This document shows, piece after piece, positions 5,126 through 47,027 of a stretch of 64,000 nt of DNA. The DNA is taken from the NCBI RefSeq assembly GCF_017355855.1, contig NZ_JAFEWD010000004.1, positions 248,001 through 312,000 on the forward strand. The letters are read 5' to 3'. How positions within the stretch are numbered: position 1 is the first letter of the stretch; every line of letters begins with the position of its first letter. This DNA is from Pedobacter sp. SYSU D00535 (GTDB lineage: Bacteria > Bacteroidota > Bacteroidia > Sphingobacteriales > Sphingobacteriaceae). Under the pieces are notes generated by a model. The model worked only from the letters and a program-made list of their open reading frames with translations. It was not told the DNA's origin and did no database searches. A program made the position numbers and the translations under genes.

Positions 5126-5155
5126 AGGAAAGAGCTCGGTTTATAGCTCTTTCCT
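5126..5155. terminator. Hairpin between convergent porP-like gene and rpoN
   Basis: Eleven-bp perfect inverted repeat AGGAAAGAGCT / AGCTCTTTCCT with an 8-nt loop. It lies just after the porP-like stop and overlaps the rpoN stop codon. Neither side has a long T-run, so it may act as a bidirectional 3' end stabiliser rather than a classic terminator. Confidence 0.5.
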
Positions 5156-6619
5156 TAACCTCGCTACCGGAATATTCATTGCCTCGCGGTATTTCGCAAC
5201 CGTTCTTCGGGCAATATTATAACCTTTCTCTTTTAGAATTTCCGCCAACTTCTCATCCGCAAGTGGGTGACGTTTGTCTTCCTTACCGATACATTCCTCC
5301 AGGATCTTCTTCACCTCTTTGTTCGAAACCTCTTCACCGCTTTCGGTTTGGATGGCCTCAGAAAAGAATGATTTCAGCAGGAACGTTCCGAACTCAGTCT
5401 GAACGTACTTAGAGTTAGCAACCCTGGAAACTGTAGAAATGTCCATGCCGATGCGGTCTGCAATATCCTTCAGGATCATCGGTTTCAGATTGCGCTCATC
5501 ACCAGTAAGGAAATAATCATACTGATAGTGCATAATAGCATTCATCGTCTTAAGCAAGGTTTGCTGGCGCTGCTTGATGGCGTCGATGAACCATTTTGCA
5601 GAATCCAGTTTTTGCTTCACAAACTGGACCGCTTCTTTTAGTTTTTTATCCTTCTGGGATGCCTTATCATAGTGCTCAAACATCTCCTGGTAGGATCGGC
5701 TGATGCGAAGTTCAGGAGCATTTTGTGCATTTAGGGTCAATACTAATGTTCCGTCGTTGTTGGAAATATGAAAATCAGGGATGACCTGTAGCTGTTTGGT
5801 ATTAACCTCACTCGAGTCACCTGGCTTAGGATTTAATTTCAGGATTTCGTTCACCACCTCGCGGAGTTCCTCGGAGTCCATGCCCAGGATCCGCTCCAGC
5901 TTATCGTAATGTTTTCTGGTAAACTCATCCAGGTGGTTCTCCACAATTTCGATGGCCTTGTGAATGACCGGGTTGTTCTGATCTTTCTTACGTAACTGGA
6001 TAAGTAAACACTCCTGCAAATCCCTCGCACCAACTCCTGCTGGCTCGAAGCCTTGGATTACTTTGAGCATTTCCTCTACCTCTTCTTCTTCCGCAAAAAC
6101 GTTTTGAGAGAAGGCGAGATCATCGATTAAGGACGTGATTGACCGGCGCAGGTAGCCATCGTCATCGAGACTTCCAATAATCTGTTGGCCAATGACGAAG
6201 TCTTTATCTGACAAAGGAACCAGGTCCAGCTGTTGCTGAAGATTTTCATAAAACGAGTTTTGAATGGCGATAGGGATTTCCTTTCGATCGTCCTCATCAT
6301 CACCATTTTGATCGTATTTTGATCCGTATTCGTTAACGTTATCCTCCTGAAGGTAGTCGTCTATATTAAATTCATCGAAATCGTCTCCGCTTTCCTCTCC
6401 CTCAAAGTTTGAGTCGTCATCAGGATCCTTATCAGGATACTGCTCCACCGGCTCGTTCATATTCGCTAAGCTCAGATCTTCTAACGCAGGATTTTCCTCT
6501 AACTCTTCTTTAATCCGTGCATCTAAGGCCACAGTTGGTACTTGTAGTAATTTGATAAACTGTATCTGCTGTGGAGATAGTTTCTGAAGTAACTTTTGTT
6601 GTAAATTCTGTCTTAGCAT
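5141..6619 (-). CDS. rpoN: RNA polymerase sigma-54 factor
   Basis: Sigma-54, 492 aa, recognises -24/-12 promoters with AAA+ activators. Residues 1-45 are the Gln/Leu-rich region I (MLRQNLQQKLLQKLSPQQIQ), followed by a strongly acidic region II (about residues 50-115), the core-binding domain, the helix-turn-helix, and the diagnostic RpoN box ARRTVAKYRE some 20 residues from the end. I chose the ATG at 6619 rather than the TTG at 6634: the family begins MLxQxLQQKL, and a TAnnTTTG box at 6632-6639 would place transcription start downstream of that TTG. Monocistronic, divergent from the pirin gene. Confidence 0.96.
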   Translation of the reverse strand: MLRQNLQQKLLQKLSPQQIQFIKLLQVPTVALDARIKEELEENPALEDLSLANMNEPVEQYPDKDPDDDSNFEGEESGDDFDEFNIDDYLQEDNVNEYGSKYDQNGDDEDDRKEIPIAIQNSFYENLQQQLDLVPLSDKDFVIGQQIIGSLDDDGYLRRSITSLIDDLAFSQNVFAEEEEVEEMLKVIQGFEPAGVGARDLQECLLIQLRKKDQNNPVIHKAIEIVENHLDEFTRKHYDKLERILGMDSEELREVVNEILKLNPKPGDSSEVNTKQLQVIPDFHISNNDGTLVLTLNAQNAPELRISRSYQEMFEHYDKASQKDKKLKEAVQFVKQKLDSAKWFIDAIKQRQQTLLKTMNAIMHYQYDYFLTGDERNLKPMILKDIADRIGMDISTVSRVANSKYVQTEFGTFLLKSFFSEAIQTESGEEVSNKEVKKILEECIGKEDKRHPLADEKLAEILKEKGYNIARRTVAKYREAMNIPVARLRKEL

Positions 6620-6631
6620 AAAGTTGTGCCC

Positions 6632-6639
6632 CAAAAATA
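6632..6639 (-). promoter_or_regulatory. rpoN promoter -7 box (TATTTTTG)
   Basis: Matches the Bacteroidota consensus TAnnTTTG, 12 nt before the ATG; expected leader only about 8-9 nt. An 8-bp inverted repeat AACAGCTG-N6-CAGCTGTT at 6662-6683 lies just upstream, near the -33 region. Confidence 0.65.
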
Positions 6640-6848
6640 CATATAAACAAATAAAAAGGGGAACAGCTGGACTGGCAGCTGTTTTTGGTTTACATGTAAC
6701 ACAAGATTAATAAAAAAGATTTAGCAATAGCTTATAAAATATTTAACTGGAGATAGGTCCTTTATACAGAAGCTTTTAAGGTTTTGGATAGTCTGATGTG
6801 AATTTTTTTTATGCAGAAACAAAATATTTTTAGATTAATTTATGCTGT

Positions 6849-7703
6849 ATGAGAACAGTAAAAGCGATTCATAATGCCAGTTTTTCCCCTATTGGAGAGC
6901 TTATCACGTATACAGCCCTGCCTAACAGATCCATCGATCAGGTTGATCCTTTTCTTTTTCTGAATCACCACGGTCATCAGGTTTATCCTCCTAATAATAA
7001 TGGACTACCTTTTGGTCCCCATCCACATCGGGGAATGGAAACAGTAACTTTTATCCTTGAAGGAGATATCATGCATCAGGACACCGGAGGGCATCAAAGT
7101 GTTATAACGGCAGGAGGTGTTCAATGGATGACTGCAGGGAGGGGACTTATCCATGCTGAGGTATCATCAGACGAGTTCAAGAAGCAGGGGGGAGGATTGG
7201 AGATATTACAGCTCTGGCTGAATCTGCCGGCCCGGTTGAAAATGACAGAACCTTTTTATAAGGGGCTGCAAAGTGGAGACATTCCCAAACTTACGCTGGA
7301 TGATGGTAAGGTGACTCTAAATCTCGTCTCGGGGAATCTGGAAGGCGTACAAGGAGCTTTTGAGTCGCATCTGGACCTCCACTTAAGCACCATATTCTTT
7401 AACCGGGGAGGCAGCATTCATCTTACTGTTCCTGAAAATCACAACATCTTTTTCTATGTCATCCGGGGCGAGTTGAGGGTGAATGAAGCGCTTGCGAGCA
7501 TACATCAGCTGGTAGAGTTTGGAGCGGGTTCAGGAAACTTACAGATCGATGCGATAGACGACAGTATATTACTTTTTGGCCACGCTGAGCCTTTAAATGA
7601 GCCACTGGTAGCTCAAGGCCCGTTCGTGATGAATACGCATGAAGAAATAAGGCAAGCCTATGACGATTACCGGCAGGGGAAGTTTGGGAACTGGTCGTTT
7701 TAA
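6849..7703 (+). CDS. Pirin family bicupin protein
   Basis: 284-aa pirin-like double-stranded beta-helix protein, cytoplasmic. The N-terminal cupin (about residues 15-125) carries the metal-binding pattern: HHGHQVYPP, PHPHRGMETVT with two His, and later GRGLIHAE with another His plus Glu. Some pirins show quercetin dioxygenase activity, but the function of most bacterial members is unknown. The second cupin (about 165-260) is less conserved. ribE follows 17 nt downstream but has its own -7 box, so co-transcription is not assured. Length is typical. Confidence 0.9.
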   Translation: MRTVKAIHNASFSPIGELITYTALPNRSIDQVDPFLFLNHHGHQVYPPNNNGLPFGPHPHRGMETVTFILEGDIMHQDTGGHQSVITAGGVQWMTAGRGLIHAEVSSDEFKKQGGGLEILQLWLNLPARLKMTEPFYKGLQSGDIPKLTLDDGKVTLNLVSGNLEGVQGAFESHLDLHLSTIFFNRGGSIHLTVPENHNIFFYVIRGELRVNEALASIHQLVEFGAGSGNLQIDAIDDSILLFGHAEPLNEPLVAQGPFVMNTHEEIRQAYDDYRQGKFGNWSF

Positions 7704-7708
7704 TTATG

Positions 7709-7716
7709 TAAATTTG
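7709..7716 (+). promoter_or_regulatory. ribE promoter -7 box (TAAATTTG)
   Basis: TAnnTTTG match ending 4 nt before the ribE ATG. If used, transcription starts at or next to the start codon (leaderless). Confidence 0.5.
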
Positions 7717-7720
7717 ACCC

Positions 7721-8308
7721 ATGTTCACTGGCATCATAGAAACCTTGGGAAAGGTTCAGTTTCTTCAATCCGATAAGGGAAACCTCCACATTACGGTAAC
7801 TTCGCAGATCTCTCAGGAATTAAAGGTAGATCAGTCTGTAGCTCATAACGGCGTTTGTCTCACGGTGGTTTCCGTAAGCGGAAACACGCATACGGTAACC
7901 GCTATTCAGGAAACGCTGGATAAGTCGGCGATTGGAAAGCTGAAGGAAGGAGATCTGGTTAATTTGGAGCGTTGTATGCAAATGAATGGGCGACTGGATG
8001 GCCACATTGTTCAGGGGCACGTGGATCAGGTGGCTGAGTGCATTGAATTAGAAGAGATGGACGGAAGCTGGCTTTATACATTTCAGTACGATCCGTCGAA
8101 AGGGAATGTAACCGTCGAGAAGGGCTCAGTCTGTGTCAACGGGATTAGCCTTACCGTTGTAAACTCTCAGGAGGGACGTTTTTCTGTGGCAATCATTCCC
8201 TACACTTACGAGCATACGAACCTGCAAAATGTAAAGCCAGGTACGTCGGTAAATCTGGAGTTTGATATTATTGGTAAATACGTAGCGAGGTTGATGGGCA
8301 GAGGATAG
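7721..8308 (+). CDS. ribE: Riboflavin synthase, alpha subunit
   Basis: 195-aa enzyme that dismutates two 6,7-dimethyl-8-ribityllumazine molecules to riboflavin and a pyrimidine by-product. It starts with the family signature MFTGIIE and has two tandem lumazine-binding domains (about residues 1-95 and 96-190). Visible hallmarks are HNGVCLTV in the first and the parallel CVNGISLTV in the second, plus NLERCMQMNGRLDGHIVQGH at the junction. Cytoplasmic trimer in the family. No other rib gene is in this window and no FMN riboswitch is visible upstream; a TAnnTTTG box sits directly before the ATG. Confidence 0.97.
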   Translation: MFTGIIETLGKVQFLQSDKGNLHITVTSQISQELKVDQSVAHNGVCLTVVSVSGNTHTVTAIQETLDKSAIGKLKEGDLVNLERCMQMNGRLDGHIVQGHVDQVAECIELEEMDGSWLYTFQYDPSKGNVTVEKGSVCVNGISLTVVNSQEGRFSVAIIPYTYEHTNLQNVKPGTSVNLEFDIIGKYVARLMGRG

Positions 8309-11917: not shown

Positions 11918-11968
11918 TTTGCAAAATATAGACCGGCATTTTATCTTTGTATCAAAGGTTCTTTAACA
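11918..11968 (+). promoter_or_regulatory. Promoter and boxA-like leader, tRNA-like unit 1
   Basis: -33 TTTG at 11918-11921, 20 nt spacer, -7 TATCTTTG at 11942-11949, then GTTCTTTAACA at 11958-11968. The last element closely matches bacterial rRNA boxA (core CTCTTTAACA) that recruits the NusB/S10 antitermination factors. The tRNA-like body begins 14 nt later. Confidence 0.7.
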
Positions 11969-11982
11969 GGATGTTTTGATAC

Positions 11983-12092
11983 TGTAGGGTGGTGAAACTG
12001 GCAGACACACCTCCTTGTCTCGGTGGCGGAGATCATGGGAAATCCAGCAATGGGCTAACCACTCCTTGAAGGTTCGACTCCTTCCCCTACAG
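11983..12092 (+). tRNA. tRNA-like RNA, copy 1 (Leu-like body, GUC anticodon, giant variable arm)
   Basis: 110-nt cloverleaf. Acceptor stem TGTAGGG/CCCTACA (7 bp) with G73 and no encoded CCA; T8; D arm GTG-AAACTGGCAGA-CAC as in tRNA-Leu; anticodon arm CCTCC-TTGTCTC-GGTGG (one T-T mismatch), reading GTC at 34-36; T arm GAAGG-TTCGACT-CCTTC, fully canonical. Between anticodon and T arms lies an unusually long (about 40 nt) variable arm: GGAG/CTCC base stem, TGG/CCA, internal loop GAAA/CTAA, and TCCA/TGGG capped by GCAA. I see no usual tRNA with such an arm. The gene has its own promoter, boxA-like leader and terminator. Whether it is charged or used in translation is unknown. Confidence 0.75.
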
Positions 12093-12130
12093 CTCCTTTC
12101 ATATAATTTAGGTTTATAATTGGTTAGTTT

Positions 12131-12162
12131 GAGCTCTCGCCCATCGAGGGCTTTATTTTTTT
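12131..12162 (+). terminator. Intrinsic terminator, tRNA-like unit 1
   Basis: AGCTCTCG-CCCAT-CGAGGGCT stem (8 bp, one T-G wobble) followed by TTATTTTTTT. About 39 nt after the RNA body. Confidence 0.85.
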
Positions 12163-12324
12163 AAAAAGATTTTGACTCTCCACAATAAATTCGAATTCAA
12201 AAAGTTTAAGAAATTGTAAAGTTGACAATTAAAGCAGCGATTTTTTGTCGTTTGTTCCAATATTGGTACTGAACTTTGCTCTGTGTTTTCGAAATGTTAA
12301 AAGTTGTTAATTTTTGTTGAAAAA

Positions 12325-12386: not shown

Positions 12387-12496
12387 TGTAGGATGGTGAA
12401 ACAGGCAGACACACCTCCTTGTCTCGGTGGCGGAGAAATCAGGAAATCCAGCAATGGACTAACTACTCCTTGAAGGTTCGATTCCTTCTCCTACAG
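12387..12496 (+). tRNA. tRNA-like RNA, copy 2 (most divergent copy; carries compensatory changes)
   Basis: Same 110-nt fold as copy 1. It is the informative copy. Acceptor pair 7-66 is A-T (TGTAGGA/TCCTACA) where copy 1 has G-C. In the second stem of the variable arm the central pair is A-T where the others have G-C, a change on both sides. The pair closing the tetraloop stem is T-A (TCCA/TGGA) where the others have T-G. D loop is AAACAGGCAGA and T loop TTCGATT. The anticodon arm with GTC, the GGAG/CTCC stem and the GCAA tetraloop are unchanged. One outer variable-arm pair becomes C-A. The preserved pairing argues for a functional structured RNA. Confidence 0.75.
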
Positions 12497-46835: not shown

Positions 46836-46918
46836 GTTGTATTAGGATTAAACTGCTTCTGGAGAATGAGAATGAATAATATAAGATCGAGGACAAAGCA
46901 GATGAAAAAATAAAAAAT

Positions 46919-47015
46919 GGGCTAGCACCTTCTATCGCACCGCTACAACCCTCTACCCTTGCTGCGTTCCCACCCTGGGGGAGTTCAAGAGGAGCTGGTC
47001 GTAGAAGACTAACCC
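46919..47015 (-). ncRNA. ffs: Signal recognition particle RNA (4.5S, small bacterial type)
   Basis: About 97 nt. The apical domain-IV loop is recognisable on the minus strand: CCCCCAGG...GGGAAC-GCAGCAAGGG, carrying the GGAA-like tetraloop region and the conserved AGCA of the Ffh-binding internal loop. The ends pair as GGGTTAG/CTAGCCC. A TACTTTTG promoter box lies 5 nt before the 5' end, exactly where expected, and a T-rich run (ATTTTTTATTTTTT) follows the 3' end. With Ffh it targets nascent membrane proteins. Overlapping ORFs on this stretch are shadows. Confidence 0.92.
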
Positions 47016-47019
47016 GCGA

Positions 47020-47027
47020 CAAAAGTA
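47020..47027 (-). promoter_or_regulatory. ffs promoter -7 box (TACTTTTG)
   Basis: TAnnTTTG match placing transcription start at about 47015-47016, equal to the RNA 5' end. Confidence 0.75.

Follow-up and report, generated by a model that had tools for sequence, protein, structure and literature searches.

A conserved tRNA-shaped RNA with aspartate identity bases and a giant variable arm in Bacteroidota and their phages

In staphylococci, a non-ribosomal tRNA-Gly serves peptidoglycan. Use of an aminoacyl-tRNA outside translation is also what we propose for the RNA described here, although the staphylococcal tRNA has a short variable loop and glycine identity. The nearest analogues are the tRNA-Other of Bacillus and the allo-tRNAs, and neither has the fold of this RNA. 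In Bacillus cereus, tRNA-Other has been reported as a tRNA-like element inside a larger regulatory RNA, and by analogy with the available part of that report our RNA may work most like it (PMC3399842). However, tRNA-Other has a Trp anticodon, occurs in some Bacilli and is poorly lysylated in vitro, and the available part of the report does not mention a giant variable arm, an Lrp partner or phage copies (PMC3399842). The allo-tRNAs, as described in the accessible portion of PMC7609411, share with our RNA a long variable arm and an anticodon at odds with the body, GUC being among their anticodons, but their 12-bp acceptor domain is arranged as 8/4 or 9/3 whereas ours is 7/5. They are listed there from Clostridia, Proteobacteria and Acidobacteria, and the string "Bacteroid" is absent from that paper (PMC7609411). 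Neither allo-tRNA geometry was found in our RNA: base -1 varies among C, T and A, so there is no conserved eighth acceptor pair.

The RNA was found in a 64,000-nt stretch of the genome of Pedobacter sp. SYSU D00535, referred to below as the window. Each copy in the window is 110 nt long, and five units lie in tandem at a spacing of 367-404 bp. In each unit the tRNA-like RNA is preceded by a promoter-like sequence (TTTG...TAnnTTTG) and a leader, and followed by a conserved tail and a terminator. An Hsp70 gene adjoins these five copies, which lack a neighbouring Lrp/AsnC regulator gene; in this genome the divergent Lrp/AsnC neighbour is found at a sixth copy on contig C17. The features are as follows.

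11918..11949, + strand: promoter-like site of copy 1, TTTG ... TATCTTTG, conserved across the six own copies
11959..11968, + strand: leader element TTCTTTAACA of copy 1, seen in the aligned copies
11983..12092, + strand: tRNA-like RNA, copy 1, from sequence, family alignment and a covariance model (CM) match of 133.6 bits
12107..12127, + strand: conserved tail TTTAGGTTTATAATTGGTTAG, which relatives and other sites of this genome also have where the tRNA-like part is missing
12131..12163, + strand: intrinsic terminator-like hairpin and T run, from sequence, conserved in all own copies
12387..12496, + strand: tRNA-like RNA, copy 2, CM match of 127.1 bits
12754..12863, + strand: tRNA-like RNA, copy 3, CM match of 128.3 bits
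13123..13232, + strand: tRNA-like RNA, copy 4, CM match of 127.3 bits
13491..13600, + strand: tRNA-like RNA, copy 5, CM match of 127.9 bits
Contig C17, 56068-56177, - strand: tRNA-like RNA, sixth copy, in the same 4.89-Mb genome

An earlier note on this DNA had placed the RNA at 12010-12092, a span that begins at base 27. The complete cloverleaf occupies 11983-12092, a start that is required because G2 lies at 11984 and G10 at 11992. In copy 1 the acceptor stem pairs 11983-11989 with 12085-12091, the D stem 11992-11994 with 12006-12008, and the anticodon stem 12010-12014 with 12022-12026 around a loop at 12015-12021 (GTC at 12017-12019); the variable region spans 12027-12067, the T arm 12068-12084, and G73 is 12092. 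With 7 bp in the acceptor stem, 3 in the D stem, 5 in the anticodon stem and 5 in the T stem, this is a 7/5 cloverleaf with a giant structured variable arm, built of a 4-bp foot, a 3-bp stem and an inner hairpin. A further domain extends the arm of the long forms; it carries the motif GG..GACCAC, which occurs in 114 of the 135 forms of at least 130 nt among the matches listed.

The fold shows covariation. Across 91 distinct rows of an alignment fitted to the structure, two-sided changes were seen in 26 of the 31 proposed pairs, and covariation was 0.373 versus 0.161 for shuffles and at most 0.128 for slid partners. An unfitted MAFFT alignment of 28 sequences gave two-sided changes in 12 of the 31 pairs and a covariation of 0.182 versus 0.088 when shuffled. 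Paired cells made up 99.7% of the 7-bp acceptor stem and 100% of the 5-bp T stem in the 91 rows, and further tRNA traits accompany this covarying cloverleaf, namely G18G19, a TTCGA-type T loop and C74 after base 73. The T-T mismatch in the anticodon stem (position 29-41), which the earlier note considered odd, is present in all six own copies but is limited to the window's subgroup, and relatives have C-G or G-C (T-T in 39, C-G in 42 and G-C in 7 of 88 sequences). It is a mismatch of that subgroup inside a real stem.

Bacteroidota and many of their viruses carry this RNA, which is uncatalogued. ARAGORN reported nothing at the tRNA-like RNA of the window, and at gathering cut-offs no Rfam family was found at the RNA in the window and 20 related loci, which rules out a known Rfam family or tmRNA. 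Rfam matches to PyrG_leader, JA04 and FopS were weak, far below cut-off and located on the terminator or flanks. Selenocysteine tRNA, with its 13-bp acceptor domain and UCA anticodon, was not a match either; our RNA has 12 bp and GUC, and scored 16-18 bits with the Rfam tRNA-Sec model against a cut-off of 47. Literature searches over an open-access collection, without subscription papers or preprints, turned up no account of it. By blastn, 26 of 60 relatives had a match; the window's own family contributed 37 of the genomes searched and 23 of the matching ones. A covariance model built from 28 sequences was then applied to 392 genomes from the phylum. Its background consisted of canonical tRNA-Leu-like matches of 82-88 nt scoring up to about 62 bits, tRNA-Leu being the only canonical class scored among the few matches inspected; matches of at least 66 bits, 107-171 nt long, were found in 40 of the 392 genomes, and one further match of 172 nt scored 59.7 bits. 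As read by hand from the best-E column of the model results, seven families had genomes with a match: the window's own (f1, 9/12), f25 (11/14), f15 (8/8), f27 (5/5), f29 (2/3), f30 (2/3) and f68 (3/3). No such match was found in the f26 genomes.

Relatives of the RNA span 107-198 nt and are found Bacteroidota-wide; one Ignavibacteriales genome and numerous phage contigs have them too. A D-arm/anticodon pattern hit at least 120 stretches each among named genome contigs and among IMG/VR contigs, and the covariance model matched 80/80 host and 80/80 viral loci among the matches listed, with 79 of these 80 host loci at 65 bits or more and the remaining one (L130) at 34.9 bits. Named hosts among the matches listed include Chitinophaga, Pedobacter, Hymenobacter, Cyclobacterium, Dyadobacter, Saprospiraceae and one Ignavibacteriales MAG. 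No plasmid carriage was seen by blastn with two queries. Both BLAST and covariance model searches inherently favour similar sequences. That the RNA forms a real, conserved family which is not dedicated to decoding is well supported.

According to the available part of PMC9976931, the strong determinants of aspartate identity are G73, G34, U35, C36 and C38, to which bacteria add G10; bacterial tRNA-Asp also conserves G1-C72 and G2-C71. All six own copies carry GTC at 34-36, T37, C38, G10, G2-C71 and G73, in line with the earlier note. We examined these positions across the family in 88 distinct sequences, drawn from the blastn and CM searches and from stretches obtained with them and not selected by anticodon; two short tRNA-Leu-like matches (L377, L378) and a truncated copy (L031) were left out. 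Position 35 is T, 36 and 38 are C and 73 is G in all 88, as are the pairs T-A at 1-72 and G-C at 2-71, and position 34 is G in 85, C in 2 and T in 1. The proposal of an aspartate identity set therefore holds for the five strong determinants and G2-C71 (85-88 of 88); it fails for G10, which is variable (G39 A36 T13), and for the first pair, U1-A72 instead of G1-C72. Besides these two differences, our RNA departs from tRNA-Asp in its class II body and in having no purine preference at 37.

The decoding features U33 and a purine at 37 do not hold across the same 88 sequences. Position 32 is T in 58 and C in 30, 33 is T in 74, A in 7, C in 4 and G in 3, and 37 is T in 75, C in 9 and G in 4, and never A. 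Loop and acceptor follow the AspRS set and not the needs of decoding, so that AspRS-type identity was retained as decoding features drifted, and the earlier suggestion of a use outside decoding is favoured by the 14 non-U33 sequences and the absence of A37. A tRNA that really decodes GAC/GAU from an odd body would account for the GUC anticodon, the mostly kept U33 and the retention within phage tRNA arrays. We consider it very improbable, given positions 33 and 37 and the normal tRNA-Asp(GTC) gene in the Pedobacter genome (one of 49 tRNA matches above the Rfam cut-off, which also include type II tRNA-Leu and tRNA-Ser); moreover, the C34 and T34 forms would read Glu codons. These forms are the homologues with another anticodon that the earlier note had named as evidence against its reading. 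They do occur, and only within the GAN (Asp/Glu) box. Nine non-G34 forms are known from the pattern-fetched and unbiased sets together among the matches listed, mainly in Hymenobacteraceae, with C34 among named loci in Hymenobacter, Pontibacter and Ekhidna.

Recognition by a single AspRS, with no decoding, would explain the conserved loop and G73 most simply. One full-length bacterial AspRS was found in each of 16 genomes examined, so that a second AspRS in carriers of the RNA is ruled out there. Against the AspRS account stand the presence of G10 in only 39 of 88 sequences, the U-A pair at 1-72 and C34 or T34 in 3 of 88, and the giant variable arm may clash with the enzyme. A CCA-tailed, AspRS-recognised, non-decoding RNA is nevertheless the reading that we judge most likely, though tentatively and at less than an even chance. 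Two other ideas were set aside. An MprF-type transferase for lipid aspartylation is not the general partner, as PF09924 was present in only 1 of the 10 carriers of the RNA in the set of 16 genomes tested. Codon-like pairing of the GUC loop with the GAC of the long variable arm is not established: all 9 non-G34 forms lack the motif, but the short G34 forms lack it too. The anticodon arm of copy 1 also contains CACCTCCTT (12008-12016), which is identical in sequence to the anti-Shine-Dalgarno end of 16S rRNA and is not conserved outside the window's subgroup.

The 3' end bears on whether the RNA would be matured like a tRNA. A C follows G73 in 187/187 host and 74/74 viral copies among the matches listed (261/261), and positions 75-76 vary. 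Among the canonical tRNAs of the Pedobacter genome, C follows base 73 in all 34 for which seven acceptor pairs were parsed; 18 of the 52 entries were left out for an unclean parse, several of them on short minus-strand slices. Full CCA is encoded in one tRNA-Leu and in tRNA-Tyr of this genome, the latter shifted one base by the script. An encoded C74 followed by variable bases suggests tRNA-type 3' processing and CCA addition.

The body of the RNA is tRNA-Leu-like. The leucine-like D arm proposed earlier is borne out: GTG...TGGCAGACAC resembles GTGGAACTGGTAGACAC in tRNA-Leu of the same genome, and the background of the covariance model is tRNA-Leu-like as well. Likeness extends to U11-A24 and to two unpaired bases after the variable stem, at its 3' foot, as in Leu rather than Ser of this genome. 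However, the RNA has G73 in 88/88 sequences instead of the leucine identity base A73, as well as a GUC loop and a variable arm of 40-100 nt. This comparison, together with the phage copies, is relevant to charging by SerRS instead of AspRS. A phage origin of the viral copies is supported by the genes alongside (terminase, PhoH, thymidylate synthase, exonuclease and RusA), with PHROG matches for 8 of 10 neighbour proteins tested, and by a 636-kb phage record. In viral contigs the RNA often lies within tRNA arrays; in two viral contigs a tmRNA follows within 30 nt. Neighbours were counted in 26 sequence clusters, of which 12 contained two or more tRNA/tmRNA genes and had a neighbour no further than 300 nt away; the nearest tRNA gene was tRNA-Ser in 8 of these 12, versus 2.2 expected, among the matches listed. 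This adjacency points to Ser rather than Asp, and with the giant arm it forms the best argument for SerRS. In the available part of PMC9976931 the bacterial Ser set includes G73, G2-C71 and a large variable arm, and allo-tRNAs with GUC exist, as the accessible text of PMC7609411 records. Still, we regard charging by SerRS as doubtful: it leaves the invariant U35, C36 and C38 unexplained, the unpaired bases of the variable arm resemble Leu, and the RNA differs from the Ser set described in that part of PMC9976931 at C72 and C11-G24 (A72 in 88/88; U11 in 73/88).

Four blastn queries yielded one annotated phage record, the one of 636 kb, and there the loop CTGTCTC is kept on a different anticodon stem, TCTCC/GGAGA. 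A search of viral contigs for the neighbouring Hsp70 protein gave no lead. Many phage contigs carry the RNA, and among the matches listed ARAGORN reported no gene in the stretch retrieved for 7 of the 26 viral clusters; together with the tandem amplification in the window, this would fit a decoy that phages and hosts retain against defences that cleave tRNA. That explanation has only a slim chance of being right, in that the host copies occupy a locus linked to lrp in several orders, unlike the patchy pattern of defence islands, and no nuclease gene is evident among recurrent host neighbours. Separately, a different tRNA-shaped family was noticed in phage contigs (L260 at 5130-8251 on the minus strand, L269, L276, L306, L335 and L358), with fixed AGTCAGGTGGCG..D-arm and TTCGAATCCTGTCCTGACTA ends, a hypervariable centre and no obvious anticodon arm; L260 holds at least four members.

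Host copies have a recurrent neighbour. A divergent Lrp/AsnC regulator gene starts 120-263 bp upstream in 93 of 139 host loci among the matches listed (50 of 79 named loci and 43 of 60 others, these 60 including overlapping loci), and all four neighbours tested contain PF01037 and an AsnC-type HTH. Promoter elements are visible in the lrp-RNA intergenic region by k-mer comparison. In several Cytophagales loci suf genes follow lrp, and an AMP-binding (acyl-CoA ligase-like) gene follows the RNA. This linkage to Lrp/AsnC suggests that the supply of amino acids exerts control. An obligate pair is ruled out: three relatives (G017, G022 and G396) have an Lrp ortholog of 74-80% identity without the RNA, so lrp and RNA are separable. 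In these relatives the slot keeps the promoter-like sequence, tail and terminator and has no tRNA-like part, from which it follows that the tRNA-like module can be lost.

The flanking elements raise the alternative that the RNA is structural or regulatory and tRNA-like in looks alone. The fold would then be a device for maturation and stability and a platform for some protein, with no aminoacylation, and in the window's family it would form the 5' part of a longer transcript that resembles an sRNA. Persistence of the tail beside lrp in those three relatives, and twice elsewhere in the Pedobacter genome without the tRNA-like part, is in keeping with this, as are the GG..GACCAC motif of the long forms and the precedent of tRNA-Other as a tRNA-like element of a larger regulatory RNA in the available part of PMC3399842. 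We think this alternative somewhat unlikely, since the tail accompanies only 27 of 187 host copies and 0 of 74 viral copies among the matches listed, and the anticodon-loop pattern would need a separate explanation. The leader is also restricted: TTCTTTAA is the type in the window units (as TTCTTTAAAA in copies 3-5), is not kept in the sixth copy, and among the matches listed accompanies 19 of 187 host copies but none of the 74 viral ones. Counterparts of the copy 1 promoter-like site precede the other copies in the alignment of all six. We read this site against what we take to be the Bacteroidetes -33/-7 consensus, and the leader TTCTTTAACA presumably resembles the rrn boxA.

Returning to the AspRS-recognised RNA, each copy would give rise to a stable transcript, cut out and CCA-tailed like a tRNA and folded into an L that derives from tRNA-Leu and bears a large structured variable arm. 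The cell's ordinary AspRS could recognise it through G73, U35, C36, C38 and usually G34, and judging by these bases its aspartylation is probably possible. With base 33 free, A37 never present and a normal tRNA-Asp in the genome, it would have no use in decoding, and its job is probably something other than codon-by-codon protein building. It might be a non-decoding aspartate acceptor, the aspartate being carried elsewhere, or an RNA that binds AspRS. The ancestral host gene may be controlled jointly with the divergent Lrp/AsnC amino-acid regulator; such joint control suggests that the RNA adjusts the use of AspRS and aspartate to amino-acid supply. Phages would carry copies within their own translation kit. 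The fuller proposal is a class of tRNA-derived RNAs across Bacteroidota, Ignavibacteriales and large phages that has kept AspRS identity, lost decoding, gained a folded domain where the variable loop would be and carries aspartate or regulates AspRS under Lrp/AsnC; this we put forward as possible, though on balance unlikely. If the RNA is charged and not decoded, it would show, in nature, a synthetase at work for a purpose beyond the codon table. Even apart from this, a conserved tRNA-shaped RNA of many bacteria and phages escapes Rfam and ARAGORN. The divergent Lrp/AsnC gene provides a genetic handle, phage copies are available for comparison, and roles of aminoacyl-RNA outside translation become testable in culturable Pedobacter, Chitinophaga and Hymenobacter.

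Some further observations concern the same DNA and genome. Tail TTTAGGTTTATAATTGGTTAG and terminator were also seen without a tRNA-like part in L007 and L008 (near 1501-1565) and in L379-L381, with the tail of L008 directly after a promoter-like site; it is possible that tail and terminator (12107-12163 in the window) represent a separate sRNA family. At another locus (L086, G000:C13:405500-409000), two tRNA-Val genes are followed by three repeats of about 360 nt with tRNA-Val 3' parts, which we presume to be remnants of GIY-YIG-type ORFs fused to these parts. Finally, the window encodes a Bacteroidales small SRP RNA at 46915-47022 on the minus strand (103 bits, Rfam).
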